A stretch of DNA of 64,000 nucleotides from Dermatophilus congolensis (GTDB lineage: Bacteria; Actinomycetota; Actinomycetes; Actinomycetales; Dermatophilaceae): contig JAUNUP010000003.1 of assembly GCA_030538115.1 (NCBI GenBank), forward strand, positions 91,779 through 155,778. Reading direction: 5' to 3'. Every line of letters begins with the position of its first letter. Positions within the stretch are counted from its first letter, which is position 1. The translations under genes and the position numbers were made by a program. Of the stretch, positions 8,059 to 48,768 are shown one piece after another. Below the pieces are notes generated by a model that was not told the origin of the DNA, did not search any database, and saw only the letters and a program-made list of their open reading frames with translations.

Positions 8059-8123
8059 CCGCCCCGGGCAAGCGTCGCATCGAGCCTTGACGCGCTCGAT
8101 AGCGCCGAGATGCCCCGGACGTT

Positions 8124-8213
8124 ACGACACGAGGGATGCACTTCAGAGCTGCCCGCGCACGTTTACCTACGTTGATTCGGCCACGAGCTCGCGAACTGCA
8201 TCCCTCGTGTTGT
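8124..8213. repeat. 90-bp palindromic element, copy 1 (overlaps the ATPase 3' end)
   Basis: The left arm ACGACACGAGGGATGCA (8124-8140) and right arm TGCATCCCTCGTGTTGT (8197-8213) pair at 16 of 17 positions. The centre carries ACGTTTACCTA. Copies of identical length are at 33583-33672 and 48679-48768, with a half copy at 39665. The right half is translated as the last 15 residues of the metal ATPase, whose TAG stop is element position 44-46. Confidence 0.93.
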
Positions 8214-10395
8214 CTCCTCCGAGCGGAGGCAGTACTGCGGGCCTGGTTCGCGCTGCGCGCAGGCCGTTGAGGATGACGATCACCTCTGCGACCTCGTGTA
8301 CGAGCACCACAGCGGCGAGGCCCAGCACACCCGTGATCGCCAGCGGCGGCAGCACCGCGATGATCAGCAGCGACAGGGCGATGTTCTGGTCGATGATCCG
8401 GCGCCCGCGCTGAGCGTGGTCGAGCGCCTGCGGGATGAGCCGCAGATCGTGGCCGGTGAAGGCGATGTCGGCCGACTCGATCGCCGCATCCGATCCGTGC
8501 GCGCCCATCGCGATACCCACATCGGAGGCAGCGAGCGCGGGGGCATCGTTGATGCCGTCACCGATCATCGCCGTCGTGGCTCGGGCACCGAGTTCGGTTA
8601 CCGCCGAGGCTTTCTCCTCCGGGCGGAGAGCGGCCCGCACGTCGCTGATACCCGCCTGCGCCGCGAGGGCACGAGCGGTGCGCTCGTTGTCGCCGGTGAG
8701 CATCGTCACGCCGATGCCCTTCTCGGAGAGGGTGCGCACGACCTCCGAAACCTCGGGTCGCAGCTCGTCGCGCACACCGATGATCCCGGCGACGCCGCCG
8801 TCACGCTGCACGACCACGACCGTCATGCCCTGCTCTTCGAGCATCGCGACTTCGTCTGCGAGCACGCCCGCTTCGACCCAGCGCGGGCTCCCGACCCGCA
8901 CCTCGCCGCCTTCGACCCGACCGCGGATGCCGTGCCCGGCCTCCTCGACGATGCCGTCGCCTGCACCCGTAGACACGGGCGCGGACGCTTCTTCGGCACC
9001 GCACGACCCGGCCGCCGTGACTGCCTCGCCACAGCCGTCGTCGCAACCGCACGCTGCGCCGGCAGAACAGCCGTCATCGCAGCCGTTCCCGGTACCGGGA
9101 GTCCAGCCGTCATCGCAGCCGTTCGGGGTACCGGAAGTACAGCCGTCGCCACAGCCGCAGGTACTCGCGGGCTCTGTGCTCGGAGCCGCGACCGGGGCGA
9201 CGAGTTCGCCCGCTTCGTCTGCGGCCTGCACGATGGCCGACGCCAGGGGGTGGGTGCTGACGCGTTCGAGCGCCGCCGCCCAGCGGAGTACGTCGCCCTC
9301 GCCGACGCCCGGGGCACTGATCACGGACGAGACCGTGGGGCGGCCGCGCGTGAGGGTGCCGGTCTTGTCGACCGCCAGGTGACGTACGGCTCCGAGCCGT
9401 TCGAACGCCGCACCGGAAGTGACGACGACACCGAACGTGCTGGCCGCCCCGACCCCCGAGACGACCGTGATCGGAACCGCGATCGCGATCGCGCACGGTG
9501 AGGCCGCGACCAGCACGACGAGGGCGCGGGTGATCCAGACGCCGGAGTCACCGAGCAGAGACCCGATGACGGCGACGAGCAAGGCCACCACGAGCACGCC
9601 CGGCACCAGAGGCTTCGCGATGCGGTCGGCAATGCGGGCCCGCTCGCCCTTGCGTGTCTGCGCGGCCTGAACCAGCCGCACGATCGTGGTGAGCGAGTTG
9701 TCGGTACCGGCCGCGGTGACCTCGACCTCGAGCACACCGGCGGAGTTGATCGAGCCGGCGAGCACCTCGTCACCCACGCCGACCTCGACGGGGATCGACT
9801 CGCCTGTGATCGCCGACGTGTCGAGGCTGCTCCTCCCGGAGTGGACCACACCGTCCGTCGCCACCCGATCGCCGGGCCGCACGAGCATGACCTGCCCCGC
9901 GACCAGCTGACGTGCGGGGATCTCGCGCCTCACGCCTCCGTCGAGCACCGCGGCGGTCTCGGGCACCAGCCGAAGCAGAGCCCGGAGTCCGTTCCGGGCG
10001 CGGTCCATGGCCTTGTCTTCGAGCGCCTCCGCGATGGAGTAGAGAAACGCGAGTGCCGCAGCCTCGCCGACGTAGCCGAGAATGACCGCACCGGCCGCGC
10101 TGATCGTCATGAGCAGCGCAATCCCTAGCCGCCCCGATCCCGCCGTGACCAGGCGGCGCAGCGCCCCGGGCACGAACGTGGAGGCGCCGAGCAGCAGACC
10201 GATCCAGTAGAGCCCGAGCGACACAGCTTCGGCGCCCGCCAGGTCTGCGGCCCACCCGGAGGCGAGCGCCACCCCGGAGGCGACCGGCACCATCACCTCG
10301 CGGTCGCGCCACCACGGGCTTTCGTCGTCGTCATCTTGGTCGAGATCGAAGTCGAGTTCGGTCTCGTCGACGGGCCCGGAACATGAGCAGCTCAC
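8167..10395 (-). CDS. P1B-type heavy-metal ATPase (CmtA/CtpG-like) with Cys-rich insertion
   Basis: 742 aa metal-exporting P-type ATPase. It has membrane helices before and after the actuator TGES (197-200), the intramembrane SPC motif (299-301), the phosphorylation site DKTGT (343-347), the HP motif (H382-P383) and a terminal helix with HEVAEV. SPC and a terminal HE resemble the P1B-4 group. Between residues 402 and 480 the nucleotide-binding domain carries an insertion with ten cysteines in 53 residues and GCDDG repeats, probably metal-binding. The N-terminus adds CSC and an Asp-rich tract. Start: GTG overlapping the stop of the CmtR-type gene (GTGA), with GAAGGAG upstream; longer frames are read-through. 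The last 15 residues come from the 90-bp element. Confidence 0.93.
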   Translation of the reverse strand: MSCSCSGPVDETELDFDLDQDDDDESPWWRDREVMVPVASGVALASGWAADLAGAEAVSLGLYWIGLLLGASTFVPGALRRLVTAGSGRLGIALLMTISAAGAVILGYVGEAAALAFLYSIAEALEDKAMDRARNGLRALLRLVPETAAVLDGGVRREIPARQLVAGQVMLVRPGDRVATDGVVHSGRSSLDTSAITGESIPVEVGVGDEVLAGSINSAGVLEVEVTAAGTDNSLTTIVRLVQAAQTRKGERARIADRIAKPLVPGVLVVALLVAVIGSLLGDSGVWITRALVVLVAASPCAIAIAVPITVVSGVGAASTFGVVVTSGAAFERLGAVRHLAVDKTGTLTRGRPTVSSVISAPGVGEGDVLRWAAALERVSTHPLASAIVQAADEAGELVAPVAAPSTEPASTCGCGDGCTSGTPNGCDDGWTPGTGNGCDDGCSAGAACGCDDGCGEAVTAAGSCGAEEASAPVSTGAGDGIVEEAGHGIRGRVEGGEVRVGSPRWVEAGVLADEVAMLEEQGMTVVVVQRDGGVAGIIGVRDELRPEVSEVVRTLSEKGIGVTMLTGDNERTARALAAQAGISDVRAALRPEEKASAVTELGARATTAMIGDGINDAPALAASDVGIAMGAHGSDAAIESADIAFTGHDLRLIPQALDHAQRGRRIIDQNIALSLLIIAVLPPLAITGVLGLAAVVLVHEVAEVIVILNGLRAARTRPAVLPPLGGDNTRDAVRELVAEST

Positions 10396-10769
10396 CGAGG
10401 CTCCTTCGCGTTGTCGCCTGTGTCGTCCGAGTCGCAACAGTCGAGCGAACAGGCCGGGTCTATGCAGGAGGCGTTCTCGTCGACGGCCAGCGTCACGTCG
10501 ACGAGGGCGTTGAGGGCGCCTGCCAAGTGCGGGTCGGCCATCTCGTACCGGGTCGCACGCCCCTCCGGTTCGGCGACGACGATGCCGCAATCACGCAGGC
10601 ACGTGAGGTGATTCGAGACATTGGAGCGGGTCAGCTCTAGTTCGCGCGCGAGCACCGCCGGGTAGGAGGGCCCGTCGAGCAGCATCATGAGGATGCGCGA
10701 GCGGGTGGGGTCGGCCATGGCCCGACCGAGCCGGTTCATCACATCGAGCCGCGCGGCAATGGTCAGCAT
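10392..10769 (-). CDS. cmtR: CmtR-type ArsR-family Cd/Pb sensor repressor
   Basis: 125 aa winged-helix metal sensor. With the ATG at 10769 the cysteines fall at 57, 61 and 102 (LTCLRDCG and ENASC), the positions used by mycobacterial CmtR for Cd(II)/Pb(II). The recognition region LTRSNVSNHL and the family text RLGRAMADPTRSRIL also match. The tail adds C107, C111 and C112. Metal binding should release DNA and induce the coupled ATPase gene (4-nt overlap). No ribosome binding site precedes 10769, but TATGGT ends 6 nt before it, so the transcript is probably leaderless. A longer frame from 10805 would add 12 residues and is less likely. Confidence 0.9.
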   Translation of the reverse strand: MLTIAARLDVMNRLGRAMADPTRSRILMMLLDGPSYPAVLARELELTRSNVSNHLTCLRDCGIVVAEPEGRATRYEMADPHLAGALNALVDVTLAVDENASCIDPACSLDCCDSDDTGDNAKEPR

Positions 10770-20676: not shown

Positions 20677-20721
20677 GCGACGGCGCTGCACTCTGTCGGT
20701 GGGGGCGTGCAGGATGAGGGC

Positions 20722-22176
20722 ATGTCCGCATTGGCCGCCGCGCTGACCTATCGGCGCCTCGTTCGTGAGAGTTCGACGCTGCGGCTGCTGCGCGCCGATC
20801 ACCTCGCGGTGGCGGGGGCGTTGCTGGCCACGCACCTCGGTGCGCCCGGGCGGCGGATACCGGCCGACGACCTGCACGAACTGCTCGACGCCGACCTCGA
20901 CGAGTTGCGCGACCACTTCGACCTCGGCGCCAAGTCGGCCAAGGCGTACTGCGACGACTGGCGGGCGGCAGGCTTTCTCGTGCGGCGGCCGGCGGCCGAA
21001 TCGCGCGGCGAGACGTACGAGCTCTCCCCGGAGGCGATCGACGGCCTCAGGGTTCTCACGCAACTCGCCCAGCCGGTCTCCACGGTGACGGAGTCGCGGC
21101 TGGCGGGGCTCATGAGCGCGATCCACCAACTCGCCATCGACACCGACAGCGACGTGGCGCGGCGCGTGGAGGCGCTGCAGGCCGAACGCGATCGCATCGA
21201 CACGGAGATCGACCGCCTCGTGCGCGGCGACGTTGACCCCCTCGACGCACGGCAGGCCGTCGAACGCGTCACCGACGTGCTGTTGCAGGCCCGCGATCTG
21301 CCGGGTGACTTCGCGCGGGTGCGGGCGCGGTTCGAGCAGCTCAACCACGACCTACGGGCGCAGATCGTCGACTCCGAAACGACCCAGAGCGCGGTGCTCG
21401 ACGACGTCTTCCGCGGAGTCGACCTCATCGAATCCTCCGACGAGGGGCGCACGTTCACGGCTTTCTCCGCGCTCATCCGTGACGCGGAGCGGTCGGCGAC
21501 CTTTGACGCCGACGTCTCCGACATCCTCGACCGCGACTTCGCCCGCGGGCTCGACCCCGAATCGCGGCGCATTCTGCGGTCTCTCATGCGGCAACTCAAG
21601 ACGGGCAGCCGCGAAGTGCACGGTGTGCTGACCGAGTTCGCGCGCGGGTTGCGGCGGTACGTGCACTCGCAGGAGTTCGCCCGCGACCGGGCCATGCGCG
21701 GCGCGTTGCAGGATGCGCTGGCGGCCGCGATCCCGGCGAGCCGCGGGGCGCGGCCGCACCATGACGTCGGTCTCGAGCTGGAGCTGTCGGCGATGCGTCT
21801 GACCAGCGTCGGAGAGGTGGTTCCTCATGACCCGGCGGAGTACGACACGGGCGTCACGCTGCTCGACGCGGTAGCCGGCACGATCGACCTCGAAGCGCTC
21901 GCCGCGTTGGCGCGCGCCACCGAGATCGACTTCGCCGAGCTGGTGGGTGCCGTCAACGATGTGCTCACGCGGTCCGCCTCCGCGACGGTGGCCGACGTGC
22001 TCGCCGAACACCCGGCGACCCAGGGCGTGGCCAGCGTTGTAGGCCTGTTGTCGCTGGCCACGCGCTACGGCCGCGTGCTGGAGGGCGAGGATCTCGTCGG
22101 CTGGCGCGGCACCGACGGTATCGACCGCTCTGCGCACGTACGCACCCACGAATTCACGGAACCGGTGGACGCATGA
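20722..22176 (+). CDS. jetA: Wadjet type I subunit JetA (DUF3375)
   Basis: 484 aa, the kleisin-like subunit of the type I Wadjet anti-plasmid complex (MksF-like). It is helical, with winged-helix-type ends and a coiled segment (about 125-240, rich in ALQAERDRIDTEIDRL and heptad leucines). It bridges the two JetC heads. AGGATGAGGG precedes the ATG at 20722. It is the first gene of a four-gene operon and overlaps jetB by 4 nt (ATGA). Assignment rests on gene order and the sizes of all four products together. Confidence 0.92.
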   Translation: MSALAAALTYRRLVRESSTLRLLRADHLAVAGALLATHLGAPGRRIPADDLHELLDADLDELRDHFDLGAKSAKAYCDDWRAAGFLVRRPAAESRGETYELSPEAIDGLRVLTQLAQPVSTVTESRLAGLMSAIHQLAIDTDSDVARRVEALQAERDRIDTEIDRLVRGDVDPLDARQAVERVTDVLLQARDLPGDFARVRARFEQLNHDLRAQIVDSETTQSAVLDDVFRGVDLIESSDEGRTFTAFSALIRDAERSATFDADVSDILDRDFARGLDPESRRILRSLMRQLKTGSREVHGVLTEFARGLRRYVHSQEFARDRAMRGALQDALAAAIPASRGARPHHDVGLELELSAMRLTSVGEVVPHDPAEYDTGVTLLDAVAGTIDLEALAALARATEIDFAELVGAVNDVLTRSASATVADVLAEHPATQGVASVVGLLSLATRYGRVLEGEDLVGWRGTDGIDRSAHVRTHEFTEPVDA

Positions 22177-23015
22177 AGCTTGACCCGCGGATGTTCGATT
22201 CCGCTGCTGCAGACGGTGACTGGGCCGGCAGACCCACAGGCGCCTCCGAGGCCACCGACACCGGTCACATCTCGGAGCCCGGGGACACGGCTGAGGCGAG
22301 TGCACCGGCCGAGGTTGGTGCCGGGGCGGGTCTGTGGCGCGGTGACACCGGGCTGCTGCACGAGCTGTCGCGGCGCGCCCTGCTGCGTCTGCTGCAAGGG
22401 CCGTACCTGTCGGGGGCGGCGAACCCGCAGTTGTGGGCGGCGCTCGTCGCCGACGAGCGAGTCATCCGCTCGCGCCTGCACGACCTGTACCTCGAACTCG
22501 TCATCGACCATGTCGACGAGTTCGCGTTCACCCGCAAGGTGCGCACGACCGAGGTCGACGTACCGCAGGCGCTGCGCAGCGAGCGGCTCTCGTTCGCCGA
22601 CACCGTGATGCTGCTCGTGCTGCGGCAACTACTGCTCTCGGCGGCCGGCGAGCGGCGCGTGATCGTCGGTCAGGAGGAGGTTTTCGAACGCCTCGCCGTG
22701 TACCGCGACGGCGATGAGGTCACGTACCAGCGCGGCCTCAACGCCGCGTGGAACCGCATGAAGAACCGGTTCCGGGTGCTGCACGACGTGGGGGACGAGC
22801 GCGTGGAAATCTCACCCATCGTCAAGTTCCTCGTCGACGAAGACCAGGTCAGGGCCCTGACCGAGGTCTTCTCTCGCCTGGCCGAGAGCGATGATTCAGG
22901 CGGTGTCGCCACGGGCACCGAGCACGACCCCGACAGCCCGGAGGTCACCGAGACGGATTCGACCGGTGCCGTCGGGAACCGCCCCGAGGCAACCGACGCC
23001 GAGGAGGATCAGTGA
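22173..23015 (+). CDS. jetB: Wadjet type I subunit JetB (DUF4194)
   Basis: 280 aa, the KITE-like (MksE-like) subunit. A disordered, acidic N-terminus precedes the winged-helix core with LLHELSRRALLRLLQGPYLSG, LVIDHVDEFAFTRKV and WNRMKNRFRVLHDVGDERVEISPIVKFL. The acidic C-terminal tail (about 235-280) is longer than I would expect and is probably disordered. It binds JetA in the loop-extruding complex. Start and stop overlap both neighbours by 4 nt. Confidence 0.92.
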   Translation: MKLDPRMFDSAAADGDWAGRPTGASEATDTGHISEPGDTAEASAPAEVGAGAGLWRGDTGLLHELSRRALLRLLQGPYLSGAANPQLWAALVADERVIRSRLHDLYLELVIDHVDEFAFTRKVRTTEVDVPQALRSERLSFADTVMLLVLRQLLLSAAGERRVIVGQEEVFERLAVYRDGDEVTYQRGLNAAWNRMKNRFRVLHDVGDERVEISPIVKFLVDEDQVRALTEVFSRLAESDDSGGVATGTEHDPDSPEVTETDSTGAVGNRPEATDAEEDQ

Positions 23016-26000
23016 GCGACACCCTGCCCCTCGACCTCCCCGGTCTCGATCTCTCCGGCCCCGACGCAGCAGGCCTCGACACCCCGGCAGAGCAGCAGCA
23101 CGGCGATACCGGCCAGTGGCGCCTCGCGGAGATCCAGGTCGCGAACTGGGGCACGTTCGACGGTGCGATCTACCGCATTCCCGTCGCCCGAGCGGGTCAC
23201 CTCATCACGGGTCCCTCCGGCTCGGGCAAGTCGTCGTTGCTCGACGGCATCGCGGCGGTTCTCACGCCCGACAAGTGGCTGCGCTTCAACGAGGCGGCCC
23301 AGGGCAGCGGGGCGCGTAGCGACCGGCGCACCACGGTGAGCTACGTGCGTGGCGCGTGGTCGCGTACGACAGACGACCTCGAAGATCGCGTGGTCTCGGC
23401 GTTCCTGCGCACCGGCGCCACGTGGGGAGGGGTGCTGCTGCGTTTCGAGAACGGCACAGACGCGCCGCTGACGCTGGGGAGGCTGTTCTTCGTCAAGGGC
23501 ACCTCGACGTCTGCCTCCGATGTCAACGACCTGTGCCTCATCGAGCGCTCCGCGATCGACCTGCGCGACCTGGAGCCGTACGCCCGCACGGGTTTGGAGA
23601 CGCGGAGGCTCAAGGCCGACTGGCCCGCGATGGTGGTCACGAGCAACGGTGCGCACGCCCGTTTCTACGCCCGCATGCGGTCGCTGCTCGGCATCGCGCA
23701 CGAGAGCGCGCTGCAGTTGCTGCACAAGACCCAGTCGGCGAAGAGCCTCGACAGCCTCGACCAGCTGTTCCGCGAGTACATGCTCGAGCGGCCGGCGACG
23801 TTCGCGGTGGCCGACGAGGCCGTCAAGCAGTTCGACGAGCTCAAGGACGCTCACGACCACGTGGTGCAGCTGCGGCTGCAGCGCGACCTGCTCTTCCGAC
23901 TCCGCGACGCGGCGCAGCGGTTCGACCGGGCGGGCGACGCGGCCGAGGCGGCCAGGGTGCTGTCGGAGGCGTTGGGCCCGTACAGAGTCCGCCGCGGGCT
24001 GACGCTCACACGCGAGGAGATGGCCACCCTCTCCGAGAGCATCGCGGGCCTCACCCTCGATGCCGATCGGGCCGACGAAACGGCGGTCAGGGCCGAGGAA
24101 GACCTCGACCGTGCCCAGCGCCGGGCTCGCGACTTGGGCGGCGCCGAGGCCGAGCATCTTCAGGAGCGCATCCGCACAGCCCGCGAGACCGAGGCGGCCA
24201 CCCTGCGGCGGCGCGACGACCTGGCCAGGCGCCTGGTCGAGGTCGGCATCCCGCATCTGCCGGCGACCGCCGCCGAGTTCGCCGAACTGCTGGCCCAGAT
24301 CGATGCCACACCCCCGCAGGCCGCAGCCGGGCCCACCCACGAGCAGCTCGACCGGCATGCGCTGACCCGCCGTGAGAAGGAGCGCGTCGAAGCCGAGATC
24401 CGGTCGCTGCGTGAGAGCGGGTCCACGGTGCCCGATCGGCTCGTCTCCGTGCGCCGCCTCATCGCCGAGAGCACGGGCCTGCCCGAGAGCGCGCTGCCGT
24501 TCGCGGCCGAACTCATCGATGTGAGAGAAGAGTTCGCCCAGTGGGCGGGAGCGATCGAACGCGTGCTGCGGCCGTTCGCCCTCACGATGCTCGTGCGCAG
24601 CGAGCACCTGCCGGCCGTGCGGCGGTGGGTCGACGAGCACCGCATCCCGGTTCGGCTCGTGTACGAAGAGGTGCACGCCGACGCCCCACCTCCGCGACCG
24701 GCGGGCAGCGATATCTCGCTCGTGCACCGCGTGCGCGTCGCCGGTGGCCCGTTCGCCGTGTGGGTGTCGGGGCGGTTGTCGGAACGGTTCGACGTGGCCT
24801 GTGTCGATCACCCCGACCAGCTCGACGATCACCCGCGGGCGGTGACGATACGCGGGCAGATCAAGCAGCGCTCGCGGTACGAGAAGGACGACCGGGTACG
24901 CATCGACGACCGGGCGCACTGGGTACTCGGCGACCGCGAGGGCAAGCTCGAGGCGCTCGTCGAACGGCTCAAGGCCGCGCAGGCGGAGTTCGACTCCGCG
25001 AACCGCGAGGTCACGAGGGCCGAACAGGCACAGCGGGCCGCGGCCCTGCGGCAGGCGACTCTGCTCGCGATACGGGGGCAGGCCTGGGAAGACCTCGACC
25101 ACGAGGCCGCGGCCCGTCGCGTGCAGGCGCTCGCCGAGAGCCTCTCGCGATTGACCGCGCACGACGGTGACCTCAGCGCGGCGATCCGCGAGGCCGACGA
25201 GGCGCGAGCGGCCCGTGACGACGCCGCGAAACTGCGGCTCGATGCGCGGGTGGCACTCAATCAGGCCGAGTCGAAGCGCCGCGAGCTGGCCGACGAGGCC
25301 GCCGAAGCGGAGGCACAGATCGCCTCGGGGTCGGTGCCGGAGGTCGACGAGGCGACATGGTCGGCGCTCGACACGCGCCTGCGTGCGGTGCAGCGCCGCA
25401 TCACCCGCACGACCATCGCCGACGTCACCGCCGACGTGATGCGTCGCCTGCAACGCGAACGCGACAAGGCGCTCGACGACGTCCGTGAAGCGTCCAGCGC
25501 GGTGACCGGATTCGCGACCGAGTTCAGGAGCGCATGGCCCTCCGCCTCCGCCGACCTCACCAGCGACGTGAAAGACCGCGGCGGCTACATCGAGATACTC
25601 GACGGCATCGTCGCGCACGGCCTTCCCGAGCACGAGGCCACGTTCCTGCGACTGCTGCGCGAGCGGTCGCGCGACATGATCGGCGAGCTGGTCAGCGACA
25701 TCCTCGCCGCCCCGAGGGAGATAGAAGACCGGGTCGTGCCCGTCAACGCCTCACTGCGCCGGTCGCCGTTCGACGACGACCGGTGGCTGCGGCTCAGCGT
25801 CAAGACCCGCCGCAGCGAGACCGTCACCCAGTTCATCGCCGACCTCCGCTCGATCGCCGAAGGCGGTTGGGGCGATGAGGATCTCGAGGCGGCCGAGCGC
25901 AAGTTCGCCACGCTGGCCGAGCTGATGCGCCGGTTCGGCTCGAGCGACCACGTCGACCGGGTGTGGCGTAACCAGTGCCTCGACACGCGGCTGCACGTGA

Positions 26001-26395
26001 CGTTCCGGGCCGAGGAGGTCGACGCGCACGGCCGCGCGCACGCGACCTACGACTCCGGGGCAGCGATGTCGGGCGGTCAGCAGCAGAAACTCGTCGTTTT
26101 CTGCCTCGCCGCGGCCCTGCGGTATCAGCTCGCCGACCCCGACGAGCTGTACCCCCGCTACGGCACCGTGGTGCTCGACGAGGCCTTCGACAAGGCCGAC
26201 ACCCGCTACACCCGCATGGCCCTCGACGTGTTCCGCGAGTTCGGCTTCCACCTCGTGCTCGCGACCCCACAGAAGCTGCTGCAGACCATCGAGCCCTACG
26301 TCGGTGGCGTGACGTCGATCGAGAACCCCACCAAGCGACGCTCGCAGGTGGCGAACCTCTCCTGGGAGGGCGACGGGCCGGGCGAGAACCCGTGA
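23012..26395 (+). CDS. jetC: Wadjet type I SMC-like ATPase JetC
   Basis: 1127 aa SMC/MksB-like motor. Walker A is GPSGSGKSS (67-75). Long coiled-coil arms run through about 270-400 and 640-860 around a hinge-like centre (about 440-620). The ABC signature is SGGQQQKL near 1020, and Walker B VVLDEAFDKAD near 1055. ATP-driven loop extrusion on small circular DNA leads to cleavage by JetD. The GTG start overlaps jetB. A long antisense frame over this gene is a composition artefact. Confidence 0.95.
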   Translation: MSDTLPLDLPGLDLSGPDAAGLDTPAEQQHGDTGQWRLAEIQVANWGTFDGAIYRIPVARAGHLITGPSGSGKSSLLDGIAAVLTPDKWLRFNEAAQGSGARSDRRTTVSYVRGAWSRTTDDLEDRVVSAFLRTGATWGGVLLRFENGTDAPLTLGRLFFVKGTSTSASDVNDLCLIERSAIDLRDLEPYARTGLETRRLKADWPAMVVTSNGAHARFYARMRSLLGIAHESALQLLHKTQSAKSLDSLDQLFREYMLERPATFAVADEAVKQFDELKDAHDHVVQLRLQRDLLFRLRDAAQRFDRAGDAAEAARVLSEALGPYRVRRGLTLTREEMATLSESIAGLTLDADRADETAVRAEEDLDRAQRRARDLGGAEAEHLQERIRTARETEAATLRRRDDLARRLVEVGIPHLPATAAEFAELLAQIDATPPQAAAGPTHEQLDRHALTRREKERVEAEIRSLRESGSTVPDRLVSVRRLIAESTGLPESALPFAAELIDVREEFAQWAGAIERVLRPFALTMLVRSEHLPAVRRWVDEHRIPVRLVYEEVHADAPPPRPAGSDISLVHRVRVAGGPFAVWVSGRLSERFDVACVDHPDQLDDHPRAVTIRGQIKQRSRYEKDDRVRIDDRAHWVLGDREGKLEALVERLKAAQAEFDSANREVTRAEQAQRAAALRQATLLAIRGQAWEDLDHEAAARRVQALAESLSRLTAHDGDLSAAIREADEARAARDDAAKLRLDARVALNQAESKRRELADEAAEAEAQIASGSVPEVDEATWSALDTRLRAVQRRITRTTIADVTADVMRRLQRERDKALDDVREASSAVTGFATEFRSAWPSASADLTSDVKDRGGYIEILDGIVAHGLPEHEATFLRLLRERSRDMIGELVSDILAAPREIEDRVVPVNASLRRSPFDDDRWLRLSVKTRRSETVTQFIADLRSIAEGGWGDEDLEAAERKFATLAELMRRFGSSDHVDRVWRNQCLDTRLHVTFRAEEVDAHGRAHATYDSGAAMSGGQQQKLVVFCLAAALRYQLADPDELYPRYGTVVLDEAFDKADTRYTRMALDVFREFGFHLVLATPQKLLQTIEPYVGGVTSIENPTKRRSQVANLSWEGDGPGENP

Positions 26396-27606
26396 TCGGC
26401 GTGGCGGCCGCCCGCGCCACGGCACGGAAGCGGCTCGTCTCCAAGCTCGGGGCGTGGGCTGCCGAGGTCGTGCTGCCCGTCTCGTCTCTCTCGTCTCCGC
26501 CGGCGGCCGACGAGGCCGACGTGGCCGAGCCGCGCCCAGACGTGCTCGCGATCGCGCTCAGGCCCCCGACCGAGACGGAGATGCTCACCGACGAACGTGC
26601 TGCCGAGGGGTGGGCGCGGGAGTGGGCGTCGCTTCCGGCGTTGGAGGGTGTCGAGGCCGACTGGGAGCAGCGTGCCTGGCGCAGTATCGGGCGGCAGCGG
26701 GTGCCCGTGCGGTTACGGCTGCGCGATGCCGACGCCGTGGCACGTTTCGTGGGCGGTGGCCCGGCCTCCGACTGGAGGCGGCTACGTGAGCGGACCGGTC
26801 ACCTCGCCTCGACGTTCGGTGCGACGCCCGAGTTGGCCCGCGTGGTGAGGCGACACGCAGCCTCGTTGGTCTCGTTCGACGACGCGCGCTTCGAACAGGT
26901 TCTCCACGTGGCCGCTTGGGCGGTGGCGAACCCGATGTCGGGGTACCGGCCCCGCCAAGTGCCGGTGCGGGGTGTCGACTCGAAGTGGCTGGGATCGCAC
27001 CGGAAACTCGTCACCGACCTCGTGGGCGCCGCAACCGGCTCCACCGACCTGGGCCTGGTCGACTCCGATCCCCTCGTCCGGGTTCGCGTTCTCGACCCCG
27101 GCATGGCCGCGGAGGCGTTCGGCGGTTTGCGCGACGTGGCAGCGCCGGTCTCCGAGCTCGCGGCGGTCTCGACGGCGATGTCGTCGCTGCGGGTCGTGTT
27201 CGTCATGGAGAATCTCGAGTCCGTGCTCGCAATGCCGAACTGGCCCGGGGCATGTGCGGTGCACGGGTCGGGCTATGCGGTGAGGGTGATCGGTCGGTTG
27301 CCGTGGCTGCGTGAGGCACGCGTCGTGTACTGGGGTGACCTCGACTCCAACGGGTTCGCGATCCTCCACGGGCTGCGCATGCACCTGCCCCGCGTCGAGT
27401 CGGTGCTCATGGACGAGCCGACCCTGCTCGCCCACCGTGACCTGTGGGTTCGCGAACCCGCGCCGAACCGAGGCGTCTTCGGCACGCTCACCGAGGGCGA
27501 ACTCCGCGCCCTGCACGCCCTGCGCCGTGAGGGCGACGTTCGCCTGGAGCAGGAACGCATCCCCTGGGAGACGGCCCTCGAAACCCTCCGTCGCTTCAGC
27601 CCCTGA
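26392..27606 (+). CDS. jetD: Wadjet type I nuclease subunit JetD (DUF3322/DUF2220)
   Basis: 404 aa. The N-terminal DUF3322-like part is followed by a C-terminal Toprim-type DUF2220 domain with the acidic set E in VFVMENLESV (about 272) and DxD in YWGDLDSNGF (about 318-320). It is the topoisomerase-VI-like endonuclease that cuts the trapped plasmid. The GTG start overlaps the jetC stop (GTGA), so all four genes are coupled. The operon appears intact, with every key motif present. Confidence 0.93.
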   Translation: MIGVAAARATARKRLVSKLGAWAAEVVLPVSSLSSPPAADEADVAEPRPDVLAIALRPPTETEMLTDERAAEGWAREWASLPALEGVEADWEQRAWRSIGRQRVPVRLRLRDADAVARFVGGGPASDWRRLRERTGHLASTFGATPELARVVRRHAASLVSFDDARFEQVLHVAAWAVANPMSGYRPRQVPVRGVDSKWLGSHRKLVTDLVGAATGSTDLGLVDSDPLVRVRVLDPGMAAEAFGGLRDVAAPVSELAAVSTAMSSLRVVFVMENLESVLAMPNWPGACAVHGSGYAVRVIGRLPWLREARVVYWGDLDSNGFAILHGLRMHLPRVESVLMDEPTLLAHRDLWVREPAPNRGVFGTLTEGELRALHALRREGDVRLEQERIPWETALETLRRFSP

Positions 27607-32410: not shown

Positions 32411-33420
32411 GCAACCCCTGGGTCGTCACGGCCGCAACCGTCGCGCTCATCGCGTTGAGCGCCTTCTTCGTCGCCGCCGAGTTCGCGCTCATCTCGGCGA
32501 AACGTCACCGGCTCGAAGACGAGGCCCCGAAGAGCCGCTCGGCCCGGGCGGCGCTCCGTTCAGCCTCCGAGGTCACGCTTCTGCTCGCCGGATCGCAGCT
32601 CGGCATCACGATCTGCACGCTGGCGCTCGGTGCCATCACCAAGCCGGCCGTGCACCACGCACTGACGCCGCTGCTTGCCGGATTCGGTATCCCGCTCGTG
32701 GCCGCCGATGCCGCTGCGTTCGTGCTGGCGCTGGTGATCGTCACGTTCTTGCACCTCGTCGTGGGCGAGATGGCTCCGAAGTCGTGGGCCATCGCGCACC
32801 CCGAGAAGTCGGCGACGATGCTGGCGATTCCGATGCGGGCCTTCATGTGGGCGTTCCGGCCGCTGCTTTCCGCACTCAACGAGTCGGCGAACTGGCTGCT
32901 GCGGAGGGCCGGGGTCGAGCCGGTCAGCCACGTGGGCAGCGGCGCGAACCCCGATGATCTGCGCCACCTGGTCGAGCACTCGATCAACGTCGGCGCCCTC
33001 GACATGGCGTACGCCGATCAGCTCTCCGGGGCGCTCGAATTGCAGGCGCTCAAGGTGCGCGAGCTCGTGCCCCCGGGCGTGCAGCCCGTGGCCGTGCAGC
33101 CGGACGCCACGGCGGTTGACGTGCGCCAGGCCGCGCTCGACTCCGGGCACCGGCGGATTCTCGTCGGCTCGGGCAAGAGCGTGCTCGGCGTGGTGCACGT
33201 GCGCGACACCCTCGAGGTGCCCGACGGCACTCCGGTGCGACAGGTGATGCGCCAACCGTTCCGCGTCACAGCCGACACGGCCGTGTACACGGCTGTGTCG
33301 CGGATGCGGGAGTCGGGCAATCAACTCGCTTTGGTGACCGAGGGCGCCAGGGTGATCGGCGTCGTGACGCTGGCCGACCTGCTGGGCCGACTGCTCCCGA
33401 CGGTGGAAAACACCCTCTGA
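32407..33420 (+). CDS. Second CNNM/CBS membrane protein
   Basis: 337 aa. A CNNM membrane domain (about 1-170, FVAAEFALISAKRHRLED, VGEMAPKSWAIAHPEKS) and a CBS pair (about 200-330) are present, but the C-terminal CorC_HlyC domain of its neighbour is missing. Paired genes of this type are common and may form a heteromer. Overlap with the upstream gene by ATGA implies equal production. A clear terminator follows. Confidence 0.88.
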   Translation: MSNPWVVTAATVALIALSAFFVAAEFALISAKRHRLEDEAPKSRSARAALRSASEVTLLLAGSQLGITICTLALGAITKPAVHHALTPLLAGFGIPLVAADAAAFVLALVIVTFLHLVVGEMAPKSWAIAHPEKSATMLAIPMRAFMWAFRPLLSALNESANWLLRRAGVEPVSHVGSGANPDDLRHLVEHSINVGALDMAYADQLSGALELQALKVRELVPPGVQPVAVQPDATAVDVRQAALDSGHRRILVGSGKSVLGVVHVRDTLEVPDGTPVRQVMRQPFRVTADTAVYTAVSRMRESGNQLALVTEGARVIGVVTLADLLGRLLPTVENTL

Positions 33421-33442
33421 CCTGGCGCGACAAGCCAACACC

Positions 33443-33480
33443 GAAGGCCCGGACCCTCCACAAGGAGAGACCGGGCCTTC
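33443..33480. terminator. Rho-independent-like hairpin after the CNNM operon
   Basis: GAAGGCCCGG (33443-33452) and CCGGGCCTTC (33471-33480), a perfect 10-bp stem with an 18-nt loop, 22 nt after the stop. It lies before a convergent gene, and actinobacterial terminators often lack a T tract. Confidence 0.8.
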
Positions 33481-33582
33481 GTACACCAGGCAACATCGGC
33501 GAACCCGACCCCCGGGACACCCACGCGCGGGGACGGCCGACGGGGTTCTGGCGCCCCCACCCGGGTGCCTCAGCGCGAGGTT

Positions 33583-33672
33583 GCGACATCAGGGATGCAC
33601 TTCGCCGACCCCGAGCCACGTTTACCTAGTTCGATGCGTACGCAGCCTCGCCGACTGCATCCCTCGTGTCGT
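33583..33672. repeat. 90-bp palindromic element, copy 2 (overlaps the CPBP protease 3' end)
   Basis: Left arm GCGACATCAGGGATGCA (33583-33599), right arm TGCATCCCTCGTGTCGT (33656-33672), central ACGTTTACCTA. The right half encodes the last 15 residues of the CPBP protein; its TAG stop (33628-33626) is again element position 44-46, the same as in the ATPase. Confidence 0.93.
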
Positions 33673-34510
33673 TTCCCTTCGGGAACACCGCGTGCAGCGC
33701 CCGCGCACAGAGGTAGGTCCAGAGCGGGCAGCCGAGGGCGATGATCCAGATGATCGGCGAGACGTAGTCGTCACCGCGGCCGAAGATGAGGATCTGGGCA
33801 TAGACGAAGAAGCTCTGTAGCGAATGCGACACCATCGCGGCGGTCATCGACCCGGTGATGACGTACACGAGACCGAACGCGATACCCGTGATGAGGTAGC
33901 TCCCCGCCTCCGCGCCGGTGAGGGACCCGCCGAGGTGCGGCATCGCGAACGCCGCCGCGGAGGCGAGGATGCCCGCGACCACGCCGAGGCCGGCACGCCC
34001 GTGGCGCGCCAGGTGGTCGTGAATCGGTCGCAGGATCGCGCCACGGTAGAGCAGTTCCTCGCATACGGGCGCGAGAATGGCGCTGGCGACGATCGACGCC
34101 GCGGCGACCGCGACCGGGCCGGCGAGGTCCATCTCCAGGAAGTACCGACGCGCCTGGCCAGGGTCGGCGGCGGCGGTCTTCGACAGAAGCCAGAAGAGCA
34201 CGTGCGAGACGACGAAGACGATGGCCAGCAGCCCCATCTCCCGGCCGGTGATCTTGGTTCGGAGGCCGAGGTCGCGGGTCGTCGGCCACCTGCGGGCGAC
34301 GATGGCCAGAAATCCCACCGCGAGCAGAGCGATCACGATGAACTGCGCCGGCACGAGCAGAGCGTTGATGAGCTCGCGGGTCGCTGCGTCCTCGGCCGGG
34401 ATGAAGCTGCCGAGCACCGCTACCGAAGAGGCCAGCACGATCGCGAAGAACGCCGGAATCGCGTACCAGGCCTTCCAGGTCGTGAGTCGGGTGGCGAGTC
34501 TGTTGGTCAT
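33626..34510 (-). CDS. CPBP-family intramembrane metalloprotease
   Basis: 294 aa with about 8 hydrophobic helices. The CPBP/Abi motifs are present: EELLYRG (EExxxR), FAMPHL (FxxxH) and a late VSHSLQSFF. The family covers Rce1-like proteases and bacteriocin-immunity-type proteins; the substrate is unknown. The ATG at 34510 begins MTNRLATRL; the longer frame to 34774 reads non-protein. The C-terminal NDTRDAVGEAAYASN is supplied by the 90-bp element. Confidence 0.87.
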   Translation of the reverse strand: MTNRLATRLTTWKAWYAIPAFFAIVLASSVAVLGSFIPAEDAATRELINALLVPAQFIVIALLAVGFLAIVARRWPTTRDLGLRTKITGREMGLLAIVFVVSHVLFWLLSKTAAADPGQARRYFLEMDLAGPVAVAAASIVASAILAPVCEELLYRGAILRPIHDHLARHGRAGLGVVAGILASAAAFAMPHLGGSLTGAEAGSYLITGIAFGLVYVITGSMTAAMVSHSLQSFFVYAQILIFGRGDDYVSPIIWIIALGCPLWTYLCARALHAVFPKGNDTRDAVGEAAYASN

Positions 34511-34806
34511 GGCCGGTGTGGTCCCCCTCGGTCGTTGCGGCCTCGATCGTGGCTGCTCAGGGGCACCAGCATGGGACAGCTGTTGGAGAATCCCGAGACG
34601 AGATCCATACGGGCGCATCACAGGGTCGTGACAAATCCCGAACAAGAATCGCCTGGTGGGGCCGATGAGTGGAGTGTGGCCGGCCCCCCTTCGGGCGCCT
34701 CGACACGCCAGGCAAGAAAGTGGCGGGCTTACCGTGAAGTCGGGCCGACGCCCCTCATCCGTGACGATCGACAACGGCGCTGCAGCTGCGGGCCCAGCGC
34801 CTGCTC
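34511..34806. other. Divergent intergenic region, no gene seen
   Basis: About 296 nt between the CPBP and PIG-L genes. Overlapping frames in both directions are extensions of the neighbours without coding character. No promoter or fold I can support. Confidence 0.5.
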
Positions 34807-34819
34807 AGGAGGAATGACG

Positions 34820-35485
34820 TTGAGCGACAACCTGCCCCGCTGGAGGCGCGCGCTCGTCGTGGTGGCGCACCCCGACGACGAGTCGTTCGGCCTGGGAGCG
34901 CTGGTCAGCACTTTCACGCAGGCCAGCGCGGAGGTCGACGTGCTCTGCTTCACGCAGGGCGAGGCCTCGACACTCGGCGCCTCGGACGACCTGGCGGGGA
35001 TCCGCGCCGGCGAACTCGAACGCGCCGCACAGGCGCTGGGGGTACGGCGGGCGCTGCTCCGCAATCATCCCGACGGCGGGCTGGCCGATGTGCGGCACGA
35101 CATCCTGGACTCCGATGTGCTGGCGACCGCCCGTGAACTGGGCGCTGACGGACTGCTCGCTATCGACTGGACCGGCGTCACCCGCCACCCCGACCACATC
35201 GCGGCCACCGCCGCAGCAGCGCGGGTCGGCGAGGCCGAGGGCCTACCGGTGCTGGGGTGGGGCCTCCCGGAGGCGGTCGCCCAGCAACTCCGCACCGAGA
35301 CCGGAGCGCCGTTCGCGGGCCTGGCGCCGGAGGAGGTCGAGCTGAGCGTGGAGGTCGACCGCACCGCCCAGCACGCCGCGATCGTCTGTCACGCGACCCA
35401 GGCCACCCCCGACTCGGTGCTCTGGCGCCGCCTAGAACTGCAGGGTTCGACTGAAACGCTGCGCTGGCTGCACCGGGTGGACTGA
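34820..35485 (+). CDS. PIG-L family N-acetylglucosaminyl deacetylase-like protein
   Basis: 221 aa. Zinc-binding AHPDDESFG near the N-terminus and TRHPDH later are the PIG-L/MshB signature. The substrate could be a GlcNAc-containing compound or a mycothiol conjugate; a MshB or Mca identity is not supported. A TTG start at 34820 is chosen because AGGAGG lies 7 nt before it, whereas the in-frame ATG at 34814 is 1 nt from that site. Confidence 0.88.
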   Translation: MSDNLPRWRRALVVVAHPDDESFGLGALVSTFTQASAEVDVLCFTQGEASTLGASDDLAGIRAGELERAAQALGVRRALLRNHPDGGLADVRHDILDSDVLATARELGADGLLAIDWTGVTRHPDHIAATAAAARVGEAEGLPVLGWGLPEAVAQQLRTETGAPFAGLAPEEVELSVEVDRTAQHAAIVCHATQATPDSVLWRRLELQGSTETLRWLHRVD

Positions 35486-35489
35486 GCCA

Positions 35490-35578
35490 GGTGGCGGCGA
35501 CCGTGCCTGAGTCCGTTGGCCCGTGCTGGGGGTTCCTGCTCGACGAGCAGGCTAAGTCCGACTGGCAGGCTCGCCACC
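35490..35578 (+). other. Structured intergenic segment with nested stems
   Basis: An outer stem GGTGGCG (35490-35496) / CGCCACC (35572-35578) encloses CCTGCTCG-A-CGAGCAGG (35535-35551), an almost perfect palindrome. The motif CTgAGTCCGaCTGG recurs at about 35507, 35552 and 35593. It could be a terminator complex for the PIG-L gene or a small structured RNA before the lipoprotein gene. Confidence 0.4.
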
Positions 35579-35651
35579 GACCGGCGGCCCGGCTGAGTCT
35601 GACTGTGCTGCAATGCACTATCGAACGATCCGACGTTCGCGAGGAGTTCAG

Positions 35652-36230
35652 ATGACGTCGCTTCGAGGCATCGCCGCCCTTACCTGCGTGGCTGCGTTGG
35701 GTGGCGTTGCCGCCTGCACGTCGGGCGAACCGAGGCAGGATGCAGCCACAACAATCGCAACGTCTCCTGCGATGCCCCCTGTGACATCTGCACCCGCTGT
35801 GCCCTCTGAGCCCAGCGCCGCCACGGGCAGTCTGAAGGAGCCGACGATGACGGTGCCGACCGGCGCCGCAGACACGTCGAGCCTCCCGGTAGCCGGAGTT
35901 GCGTTGCCCGCCAACGGAGCAGCCGTTGACGCGGCCACCTTCGCCGCGGCGATGCAGGTCCCGGGCACCGTCATCCTCGACGTGAGGACGCCGCAGGAGT
36001 TCGCCCAAGGTCACATCGAAGGCGCTTTCAACATCGACATCGAATCGGGCAACTTCGCAGACAAAGTCGCCGAACTCGACACCCGAGTCCCCTACGCCAT
36101 CTACTGCAGAAGCGGAAACCGCTCAGCCGTAGCAGTGCAACAGATGAACTCCATAGGCTTCACCCAGACATACCACCTAGAAGGCGGAATAACAGCCTGG
36201 CAATCCTCGGGCCACCCGGTCGTGAAATAG
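35652..36230 (+). CDS. Rhodanese-domain lipoprotein
   Basis: 192 aa. A lipoprotein signal peptide with lipobox VAAC (C22) is followed by a Thr/Ser/Pro-rich linker (about 25-95) and a rhodanese domain (about 100-190) with VILDVRTPQEFAQGHIEGA and the active-site loop YCRSGNRSA. It would act on the outer face of the membrane in sulfur transfer or redox. GAGGAG precedes the ATG. The last 130 nt (from about 36100) use noticeably more A-ending codons (AGA, ATA, CTA, GGA) than the neighbours. Confidence 0.92.
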   Translation: MTSLRGIAALTCVAALGGVAACTSGEPRQDAATTIATSPAMPPVTSAPAVPSEPSAATGSLKEPTMTVPTGAADTSSLPVAGVALPANGAAVDAATFAAAMQVPGTVILDVRTPQEFAQGHIEGAFNIDIESGNFADKVAELDTRVPYAIYCRSGNRSAVAVQQMNSIGFTQTYHLEGGITAWQSSGHPVVK

Positions 36231-36310
36231 GGCTAGGGCACGTCGCTGAAATAGAACACCCGCGAATTGCTACGACCGTCCATGTTGCGGGATTGCCCTG
36301 GGGCGCAGGC

Positions 36311-36904
36311 TCACCCCGTCGGCTGGGGCGGGTAGGTCACCACTCCGTCATTCACCTCGGCGGGAGCGCCCCAGCGGCCGAGTTCGTGTTGTCGGGGCTT
36401 GGCCGTGCTGCTCAGGTGCCAGACCGTCCAGCCGCGGGCGACGAAGGTGTTGGAGATGAGGGAGCGGTGGCAGCGCCAGGGCATCGGCTCGCCACACATC
36501 ACTGCGACGCGTTGCTCGCGGGCCAGGGCCATGAGGCGGTCGATGCCCTCCTCGTACGCGGGCGTGAGTGTGTAGTCGGCGTAGTTCTTGAAGCTGTCGT
36601 TCTCCCAGCCGGCGTTGATGAGCGGATCGACGTCGAGCTGCTTGCGGCGCCGGCCGCCCAGCTCGGGCATCTGCATGTACCCGATGCCGGCGTCGTCGAG
36701 CCACGAGCCCATCACCTCGCCTCCGAACTGCGGGCTTCGCCGCGAGCCAGGAAACGACCGCACATCCACTACGACCTGGATGTTCGCCTCCTGCAACGCG
36801 GCGACGAAGACGGATTCGGGGCAGGTCCAGTGCCCGATGGTCCACAACTCACCGGCGGTGGCTTTGTCCGGAAGGGGGTCTGCGGAGGCGGTGCGTCTGG
36901 TCAT
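36311..36904 (-). CDS. DUF488 family protein
   Basis: 197 aa. It has the family segments TIGHWT, VVDVRSFPGSRRSPQFG and the conserved CGEPMPWRCHRSLIS (CxE...CHR). Biochemical function is not established; the Cys/His motif suggests a nucleic acid or metal role. It lies 29 nt downstream of the MurB-like gene on the same strand. Confidence 0.9.
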   Translation of the reverse strand: MTRRTASADPLPDKATAGELWTIGHWTCPESVFVAALQEANIQVVVDVRSFPGSRRSPQFGGEVMGSWLDDAGIGYMQMPELGGRRRKQLDVDPLINAGWENDSFKNYADYTLTPAYEEGIDRLMALAREQRVAVMCGEPMPWRCHRSLISNTFVARGWTVWHLSSTAKPRQHELGRWGAPAEVNDGVVTYPPQPTG

Positions 36905-36933
36905 CGCTCGTGCCTATCGATCGATGTTTGCGG

Positions 36934-37575
36934 TCAGTTGTTGGAGCCGAGGGCGATGTCGCGCACTCGGGCGAGCGGAACTCGCTCTCCGGGAGCGATT
37001 CCCAGCGCCTCCACCAACTCGGGGTCGTCGATCGGAGACGTGATGTCGGCCTGCTTGAGCAGTAGAGACGCCTCGACAACGACGTACCGGGGTGTCCCGT
37101 CAGGGAGCAGTTCGCGGCTGAATCGCGAAGAACCAGGCTCGAATTCGCACTCCACCATCGCGAAGGTCTTCTGGGAGTCGGTGGCGCGATCCCAGGTGCG
37201 AACCGACGAGACCGTATCGGCGATCGACCGACCGAAGCGCACCTCGTTCGCCGTGACCACGCTGCCCACCGTTCCGGGCAGGCCGGCGAGAGCCTCGACT
37301 CCGGCCCAGCCGCCCTTCACGGCGAGTTCGATGACATCGGCCCACGGCTCCCCGGCCGCCAGCGTCAGGGTGCCGCCTCCGCAGAACACCAGGTCATCGA
37401 CGTGACACCCCTCGGTGTTGAGGTCGATGCCGCGCGTCGCAACGTCGATGACCAGGCTCTCCACACCCGCAGGCGGCTCCGCGCCTCCCGCTACGACGAC
37501 CGCGGTCTCGGTCACGAAGGCGTCGTGCAGACCCGCCCGAAGCTCGTTTTCGCTGGTCACGGTGATGCGTCTCAT
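36934..37575 (-). CDS. Truncated MurB-like protein without the catalytic C-terminus
   Basis: 213 aa against about 340-370 for actinobacterial MurB. The middle of MurB is recognisable: DVATRGI, LTLAAGEPW, GGWAGVEALAGLPGTVGS, DTVSSVRTWDR and APGERVPLARVRDIALG. It ends where MurB continues into the catalytic RxGKGM...GSFF region, and the IQNVGAYGQ segment is replaced by VTANEVRFGRS. Only 29 nt separate its stop from DUF488, so no frameshifted remainder exists. It is probably a non-enzymatic MurB paralogue; FAD binding is uncertain. Confidence 0.75.
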   Translation of the reverse strand: MRRITVTSENELRAGLHDAFVTETAVVVAGGAEPPAGVESLVIDVATRGIDLNTEGCHVDDLVFCGGGTLTLAAGEPWADVIELAVKGGWAGVEALAGLPGTVGSVVTANEVRFGRSIADTVSSVRTWDRATDSQKTFAMVECEFEPGSSRFSRELLPDGTPRYVVVEASLLLKQADITSPIDDPELVEALGIAPGERVPLARVRDIALGSNN

Positions 37576-37707
37576 GTCCCAGGCCTACGCGACCGCAGGG
37601 AGCTCCGCAACTGGGAGCCGACGTCCGCGCACTCGGTGACGTCGGCGCCCCGCGGCCCCGGGTCGAGGCGGGACTTTCGTCGCGGCATCCCTGACAGACT
37701 CGGTTGC

Positions 37708-38388: not shown

Positions 38389-38409
38389 GTCGTCGACCGC
38401 CCGTGAGCC

Positions 38410-39594: not shown

Positions 39595-39664
39595 GCCCGC
39601 CATCCTGCCCGAACAGCGCCGAACCGCGCCCCAACAGTGCCTGGAGGCCGGTGCGCCGATCGTT

Positions 39665-39720
39665 GCGACACGAGGGATGCAGTTCTCGGGCGCTCGCGCG
39701 CATCGACCTAGGTGAATGCG
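39665..39720. repeat. Half copy of the 90-bp palindromic element
   Basis: The left arm GCGACACGAGGGATGCA (39665-39681) and the centre with ACCTAGGTGAATGC (39706-39719) are present. The right arm is missing and is replaced by sequence leading into a poly-C tract. It lies between the winged-helix gene start and the CDF exporter stop. Confidence 0.85.
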
Positions 39721-39741
39721 AGCAGTCCTAGTTGGTACCTG

Positions 39742-39778
39742 CCCCCCACCGCGTTCCCCGCCCCCCCCCGCCCCCCCC
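39742..39778. repeat. Poly-C tract, G-quadruplex-capable on the minus strand
   Basis: Runs of 6, 4, 9 and 8 C (39742-39747, 39756-39759, 39761-39769, 39771-39778). The minus strand therefore carries four G-runs with 1-, 1- and 8-nt loops. It starts 33 nt past the CDF exporter stop, next to the broken end of the half element. Run lengths should be treated with caution, as homopolymers are error-prone. Confidence 0.85.
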
Positions 39779-39810
39779 AACGTCGGCGCCACCCCATCCG
39801 AGCCGGGGGT

Positions 39811-41240: not shown

Positions 41241-41246
41241 TGAGCG

Positions 41247-41262
41247 ATGATATGCCTGATAT
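41247..41262. promoter_or_regulatory. Operator/promoter between ArsR-type and Crp-type genes
   Basis: The A+T-rich ATGATATGCCTGATAT holds two TGATAT repeats 9 bp apart; ATAT-GCCTG-ATAT is symmetric in spacing. It overlaps the minus-strand -10 TATCAT (41252-41247). Likely the metal-repressor site. Confidence 0.5.
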
Positions 41263-41292
41263 TCGATTTGGGCCACGGCGTAGCCTGGCTGC

Positions 41293-42306: not shown

Positions 42307-42349
42307 GTGTTCACCGTACGGCCCAGCACCCGGCCCGCCTTGGAGATGC

Positions 42350-43730: not shown

Positions 43731-43732
43731 TT

Positions 43733-48519: not shown

Positions 48520-48678
48520 CAGCGTCTCCTTAGTACTCGCTTGGGCCAATCATGGCGCCACTCAGCCGCGGGGGAAACCGGGCAGGTCCCGCTCGGGCTG
48601 CGGGTGACCGACCCCACGTGAGAAATGGGCCACGCCTCACGGATTCAGCGCACGGCGCGGGCCGGTTGGCTGATCGTT

Positions 48679-48768
48679 ACGACATGAGAGATGCACTTCT
48701 CGAGCTGTCACGCACGTTCACCTAGGTGAATGCCGCGCACGGGCCGTGAAGTGCATCTCTCAGGTCGC
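48679..48768. repeat. 90-bp palindromic element, copy 3 (intergenic)
   Basis: Left arm ACGACATGAGAGATGCA (48679-48695) and right arm TGCATCTCTCAGGTCGC (48752-48768). The centre contains the perfect palindrome TTCACCTAGGTGAA (48717-48730). It lies in the 365-nt gap 48520-48884, with no reading frame passing through it; the rest of that gap holds the operator at 48816. Confidence 0.93.

Follow-up and report, generated by a model that had tools for sequence, protein, structure and literature searches.

A 90-bp palindromic repeat overlapping the 3′ ends of two unrelated genes in a high-GC actinobacterium

The 64-kb stretch of DNA analyzed here (the window; G+C content, 69.4%) contains three palindromes and a half copy, which together represent one repeated sequence. 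Comparison with homologous proteins indicates that two copies supply the C-terminal tails of a metal P-type ATPase and a CPBP protease. The repeat is, in our view, likely a REP/MITE-type short interspersed palindrome, restricted to a lineage and tolerated at gene ends; the family is apparently undescribed.

Copies of the repeat and their anatomy

The initial annotation had listed three copies of exactly 90 bp, and re-reading of the sequence bore out their places and their length. Copy 1 (8124..8213, plus strand) is flanked by convergent genes, a cytochrome P450-like gene that ends at 8058 on the plus strand and the ATPase ORF (8167-10590, minus strand). Copy 2 (33583..33672, plus strand) also lies between convergent genes, which encode a CNNM/CBS protein (plus strand, end at 33420) and the CPBP protease (33626-34774, minus strand). 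Copy 3 (48679..48768, plus strand; center TTCACCTAGGTGAA) shows the highest symmetry. To its left, a small ORF without domain matches (48115-48549) was called on the minus strand, and to its right, a thioredoxin/rhodanese gene (48885-49592) is located on the plus strand. If the small ORF is real, copy 3 probably lies between divergent genes. A repeat search added copy 4 (39665..39719, plus strand), a half copy with left arm, spacer and center CCTAGGTGAATGC, in which the right arm is lost. Its neighbors, an AlkZ-like gene and a cation efflux gene (39811-40752), are codirectional on the minus strand. Genes were called by G+C content at codon positions, plus domain scans.

Several local features lie near these copies. 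The AlkZ-like ORF is open through copy 4, but ATGs at 39603 and 39594 are downstream of the copy, and it is unlikely that the copy codes for the AlkZ-like N terminus. The likely start of this gene is at about 39603 on the minus strand, and its Pfam domain begins at residue 98. A long C-rich run (39745-39779) lies beside the broken copy 4 and may be a site of slippage or deletion. Upstream of the thioredoxin/rhodanese gene, 48816-48831 is an inverted repeat (ATACCCACAGGGGTAT), which we take to resemble sites of metal- or sulfide-responsive repressors. The window start (1-300 and 304-356) carries another palindromic repeat, unrelated to the first: about three tandem 106-bp units (92% matches), each with palindromic arms of the form GTGCCGTGGCAC...GTGCCACGGCAC, and one more arm pair, which has diverged, just downstream.

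In the same orientation, 64/90 positions are identical between copies 1 and 2, 58/90 between copies 1 and 3, and 55/90 between copies 2 and 3, compared to a mean of 25.9 (standard deviation, 4.8) for random 90-mers of the window. A covariance model built from copies 1 to 3 scored those three at 94 to 102 bits on the plus strand, as follows from its construction, and copy 4 at 28.3 bits (E = 7e-5). A further row of this search (720-807; 13.5 bits, E = 0.37) is probably due to chance. In a position-weight scan, the seven half sites scored 48 to 62 bits, the same seven having built the matrix; the next best place in the window reached 6.8 bits, and five dinucleotide-matched random windows reached at most 8.7 bits. 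None of the four copies lies inside a gene body, and two of them overlap gene 3′ ends. Since about 89% of the window is coding (by a coarse count in which the two tailed genes end at the element border), avoidance of gene bodies by all four copies is unlikely by chance.

Read inward from either end, an arm of 21 nt (consensus RCGACAYGAGRGATGCASTTC) is followed by a spacer of 16 nt and by one half of the 16-bp core. The core of copy 3 is GTTCACCTAGGTGAAT, and in its best form the core is centered on CCTAGG. A 17-nt arm consensus had been proposed before. It is exact in three of the six arms and has one break in each of the others (G8C in the left arm of copy 2, G3A in the right arm of copy 1 and A6C in the right arm of copy 3), and the similarity extends beyond it to 21 nt. 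The conserved center ACGTTYACCTA, also described previously, was found again in all three whole copies.

Between copies, 32 to 36 of 42 nt are identical in the arms and 12 to 13 of 16 in the core, compared to only 11 to 15 of 32 in the spacers (arms versus spacers, Fisher p = 7.6e-4, 2.3e-4 and 3.9e-4 for the three copy pairs). The spacer length is constant in 7/7 half sites and the spacer sequence is weakly conserved, with an identity of 0.41 over the 21 pairs of the 7 half sites, where composition alone predicts 0.33. In the 21-nt arms, which correspond to the terminal inverted repeats expected of a MITE, standard pairs make up 20 of 21 positions in copy 1, 18 in copy 2 and 19 in copy 3 (57/63 cells overall; 90.5%). 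Furthermore, in each whole copy the predicted fold of either strand is more stable than that of any of 200 shuffles (z = −3.9 to −7.5). Slid controls pair at 31 to 46%, versus 88.5% for the structure, a difference that is expected since the structure derives from these sequences. Covariation at arm pairs 7/84 and 11/80, in which both sides changed, was within the range of shuffled alignments of the three sequences (198/500 shuffles reach the observed count).

The element may be longer on its left side. GTT adjoins the left border in all four copies, as CGTT in three of them and as GGTT in one. The 20 nt to the left of copy 3 (48659..48678; the last 3 nt are GTT) and of copy 4 (39645..39664) are identical at 16/20 positions, a value reached by 5e-6 of random pairs. 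The likeness is weaker for the left flank of copy 1 (8109..8123), which agrees with that of copy 4 at 11/15 nt (6e-4 of random pairs) and with that of copy 3 at 8/15 nt only; to the left of copy 2, apart from the GTT (33580..33582), the head is unrecognizable. This comparison took in six flank pairs and three lengths. The right flanks agree at 3 to 5 of 10 nt. Because the left flanks are shared and the right flanks are unlike, an asymmetric left head of up to approximately 20 bp probably belongs to the element.

Origin of the protein tails at copies 1 and 2

The two genes to the right of copies 1 and 2 run 47 nt into the element on the minus strand and end at its central TAG. In copy 1, the coding right half (8167..8213, minus strand) comprises the last 14 whole codons of the ATPase gene (NTRDAVRELVAEST), part of a D codon and the TAG. 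Correspondingly, in copy 2 (33626..33672, minus strand) it comprises the last 14 whole codons of the CPBP gene (DTRDAVGEAAYASN), part of an N codon and the TAG. The stop had been placed at element nt 44-46 on the plus strand, which is the same TAG as nt 45-47 read on the minus strand. Domain scans agreed with the view that the two proteins are unrelated, one being a heavy-metal P-type ATPase and the other an Rce1-like (CPBP) protease.

Among 56 CPBP homologues, a set that includes the window's own protein and some fragments, the tail motif RDA[VLIMA] was present in the last 30 residues of the own protein only (0/55 others). In four homologues (P0009, P0011, P0012 and P0013), FP[KR]G is the very C terminus, and others end soon after; in the CPBP gene of the window, this end point lies one base before the element begins. 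The closest other homologue (P0002; 67 to 69% identical) has a different C terminus. Among the best 120 of 6,515 ATPase homologues, the tail was found in P0059 alone, a protein that is 99% identical to the window's ATPase and whose gene lies on a different, 11,185-bp contig; none of its 15 tail residues differs. The RDA[VLIMA] match in a further ATPase homologue, P0093, is a chance match, since its tail is different. After the GLRAA motif, 3 to 52 residues follow in 119 ATPase rows (best of 6,515) and 27 in the window's protein. In view of this variable length, the length of the ATPase tail alone is not unusual, while its sequence is.

Thus, tails in distant orthologues, which would have spoken against an origin in the palindrome, were not found among the 56 CPBP and the best 120 of 6,515 ATPase homologues. 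Since the tails are missing from the homologues, the comparison argues that they come from the element, in line with the earlier proposal that the palindrome reaches into the gene ends and is the source of the tails. Among the matches listed, the named homologues nearest to the two proteins include those of Mobilicoccus, Nesterenkonia, Promicromonospora and Georgenia, with 55 to 70% identity in the aligned region.

An AlphaFold model of the CPBP protein (30 sequences) had a mean pLDDT of 93.7, with most of the fold at 93 or more. The last 14 residues had a pLDDT of 56 to 59 and were modeled as a short helix (residues 285-292), in keeping with a tail that is an appendage outside the predicted fold. 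Used as protein queries, the tail peptides matched 0/4018 candidates at E ≤ 10, a level that peptides of approximately 15 residues are hardly able to reach against a database of this size.

In the ATPase ORF we also observed a 36-bp tandem repeat (9031-9159, minus strand) encoding a Cys/Asp-rich insert with GCDDG units. No such insert was seen in the homologues P0060 to P0062.

Relation to known repeats and possible mode of spread

The way in which the repeat meets gene ends is already known from Coxiella QMITEs, enterobacterial RU-1 and GTAG-REPs. According to the available part of the Coxiella burnetii study, QMITE1 overlaps the ends of pntAA, nagZ and a transporter gene, with overlaps of 42, 49 and 50 bp among them, and in one strain 33 residues at the C terminus of EnhC presumably come from QMITE2 (PMC5896051). 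Like these, the repeat described here is a short inverted-repeat element overlapping the 3′ ends of unrelated genes. It differs in that the stop lies at the dyad center, whereas the EnhC stop is directly downstream of the element-coded part; moreover, QMITEs belong to another phylum and, as far as that part of the study reports, were mapped over whole genomes (PMC5896051), while the present copies are known from a 64-kb window.

Enterobacterial RU-1/ERIC, RU-2 and RU-3 are likewise small repeats fused to gene 3′ ends, and in the sections available, RU-1 is described as having taken the place of an Erwinia amidase stop, adding a tail (PMC2759123, PMC2229807). Their lengths of 127, 168 and 103 bp, respectively, differ from the 90 bp found here, and ERIC/RU-1 is listed with TA termini and a target duplication (PMC2759123, PMC2229807), neither of which was seen at our copies. 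GTAG-REPs, in the available text, often give a TAG stop to the adjoining ORF, are mostly located between convergent or codirectional genes and, when within ORFs, lie at the coding end in slightly more than 10% of cases (PMC3733652). The present repeat resembles the GTAG/CGTC-tagged REPs as a palindrome with an unpaired motif at one end only, but their stems, as given there, measure 6 to 13 bp, in contrast to its 21-nt arm and central stop (PMC3733652). REPs of this kind and REPINs carry a terminal GTAG or CGTC tag on a palindrome of 20 to 40 bp; here, the motif is SGTT and the dyad spans 90 bp. The word "Actinobacteria" was not found in the main text of the GTAG/CGTC-REP paper (PMC3733652), and a partly available study tables REP counts for some Actinomycetota genomes, there without sequences for comparison (PMC12306157). 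Rickettsia palindromic elements, to follow the available part of their description, are palindromes of 105 to 146 bp that are tolerated in protein genes, fused in frame inside them, whereas reading of our repeat stops at the center and only gene ends are affected (PMC2229807). Indeed, instead of in-frame read-through inside proteins, both frames stop at the center. In summary, the repeat works like QMITEs, RU-1 and GTAG-REPs but departs from features that define these families: it has no GTAG or CGTC tag, its dyad is too long, and no target duplication was found.

The statement that no described family matches therefore holds in part: Rfam has no family that reaches its threshold anywhere in the window, while the behavior at gene ends had been described for other repeat families (PMC5896051, PMC2759123, PMC3733652). 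Our literature search found no title describing the sequence of this repeat, papers not being searchable by sequence. In 84,980 species genomes, the exact arm pattern had two matches, neither with a partner arm, and both were taken as chance; in IMG/VR viral contigs, it had one match without a partner arm. A relaxed two-arm pattern also matched once in IMG/VR, in a phage-like coding region and without the core, and was rejected. A blastn search of plasmids and phages with copy 3 alone gave nothing. All of these searches were strict, so that distant relatives could be missed. That no other genome with the element was found is a point against the REP/MITE reading, since a mobile family might be expected in relatives.

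The initial annotation had also suggested a mobile palindrome tolerated at gene ends. The overlap with gene ends supports this; on the other side, no target duplication, empty site or transposase was found. At the borders of copies 1 and 2, no exact duplication of at least 4 nt was present within 8 nt, and the duplication (usually TA at the termini) expected of a MITE is not seen there; the borders of copy 3 showed 4-nt matches only. In domain scans, 0/58 window ORFs matched a transposase family. The scanned ORFs were 54 of the 57 called plus 4 others, and eight were compared with NCBIfam only, at E ≤ 1e-20. As the copies are quite diverged (55 to 64 of 90 positions identical), they show no evident sign of recent movement. 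The right flanks of copies 1 to 3 had raised the suspicion of insertion beside small hairpins, and this idea was dropped on the flank energies. Over 27 nt, these energies fall in the 5 to 39% tail of random stretches, the 5% being one strand of copy 3; over 20 nt, copy 1 reaches 3% and the other copies are unremarkable.

We propose that the copies spread via a recombinase or transposase encoded elsewhere. The arms and core would stay alike since this machinery reads them, while the spacers would drift. Arrival at the last codons of a gene would remove the old stop, and translation would then pass through the first half of the palindrome and end at the dyad center, where CCTAGGTRAA offers two stops in different phases, TAG and TRA. 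The outcome would be a tolerated tail of approximately 15 residues outside the protein fold. Between convergent genes, the hairpin may in addition define where the mRNA ends. In E. coli, REPs near a stop codon can reportedly stall ribosomes. On this REP/MITE reading, the results would add a family of palindromic repeats, apparently undescribed, from an actinobacterium of high G+C content, along with two clean cases of a repeat rewriting a protein C terminus, a route for new protein tails, and the central stops would be a simple reason why gene ends tolerate the repeat.

We also considered, as an unlikely alternative, that the palindrome is a DNA or RNA site held by selection, either bound by a protein or serving as a two-way transcription or RNA-end signal, and that the overlap with gene ends is a by-product. 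It would explain the much stronger conservation of arms and core compared with the spacers, whose length does not vary, and the strong hairpins on both strands and the location of two of the three whole copies between convergent genes are compatible with it. However, kept ends and drifting spacers are also shown by mobile REP families. Copy 3 probably lies between divergent genes and copy 4 between codirectional ones, three whole copies per 64 kb would be many for a specific operator, and the covariation stayed within the shuffles. In addition, the hairpins are not followed by a T run: by eye, no run of at least 4 T was present in the flanks of copies 1 to 3, and the hairpin plus U-tract of an intrinsic terminator was not seen there. 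A terminator scan of 33000-49500, which covered copies 2, 3 and 4 and loops of 3 to 8 only, had no terminator-like match on these copies and so lends no support to the previous suggestion of a portable terminator; a match at 33438-33417 (minus strand) lies approximately 145 nt beyond copy 2.

Central stops and the shared reading phase

Next to the REP/MITE reading, we assessed whether the center was shaped to end translation, so that a copy arriving at a gene end, whichever way round, would be able to close the frame at the tip of its hairpin. Among the 18 copy-orientation-phase readings of copies 1 to 3, the first stop is at nt 40-52 in 8/18 and elsewhere inside in 3/18, and 7/18 have no stop inside the element; for random 90-mers, 5.0% have their first stop at nt 40-52 in one frame. 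The best form of the core (copy 3, CACCTAGGTGAA) has stops in two of three phases on both strands because the core is a palindrome. Copies 1 and 2 have stops on the minus strand in phase 1 (nt 49) and phase 3 (nt 45), but on the plus strand their central stop is in one phase only, which counts against a center shaped for termination. With three copies, selection for central stops is inseparable from the palindrome itself. We consider such shaping very doubtful. If it had occurred, the repeat would be a mobile palindrome that has adapted so as to do no harm at gene ends, and a ribosome stop at the hairpin apex would couple termination to mRNA end formation. The repeat would matter more if further copies showed stops kept by selection.

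Both the ATPase and the CPBP gene enter the right end of their copy in phase 3 on the minus strand. The initial annotation had judged the same phase, orientation and stop hard to explain by chance. This assessment does not hold, since for two copies at gene ends the chance is approximately 1/6 to 2/9: by arithmetic, two independent landings share orientation and phase with a probability of 1/6, or of 2/9 if only readings with a stop inside the element are counted. Similar peptides and the same stop necessarily follow when two homologous copies are translated in the same phase, and at such odds the phase argument adds little. A further idea is that the tails are useful and selected, for example for membrane-protein turnover, the element being a portable C-terminal tag. 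That two membrane proteins carry a similar peptide in the same phase, and that the tail is unchanged in the 99%-identical ATPase P0059, fit this idea, which we nevertheless find highly improbable: the similarity of the peptides follows automatically from the phase, the CPBP tail was modeled with low confidence, and an admittedly insensitive search found the tail in no further protein.

That the copies go back to a local duplication, or to gene conversion among these gene ends, and not to a dispersed family, is scarcely credible. Copies 1 and 2 are the most alike and share their orientation, which would fit, but the poor agreement of the right flanks and the quite different surroundings of copies 3 and 4 speak against it. 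Membership in the Rfam actinobacterial sRNA family Ms_IGR-7 has a negligible probability: the minus strand of copy 3 aligns over its full 118 positions (20.5 bits, E = 0.054), yet the gathering score of 45 is not reached, copies 1 and 2 had no Rfam match up to E = 5, and the microRNA family MIR1033 scores higher on the same hairpin (26.2 bits; gathering score, 70). We treated the Ms_IGR-7 likeness, like that to MIR1033, as a chance match of a long hairpin.

Three further loci of the window were recorded. Four plus-strand genes at 20707-27606 encode proteins with DUF3375, DUF4194, SbcC-like ATPase and JetD_C domains, presumably a Wadjet-type JetABCD system. A 213-amino-acid ORF (36934-37575, minus strand) has FAD_binding_4 as its sole Pfam match and is perhaps a truncated oxidase gene. 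Finally, a protein with a tocopherol cyclase-like domain is encoded at 60252-61361 on the minus strand.
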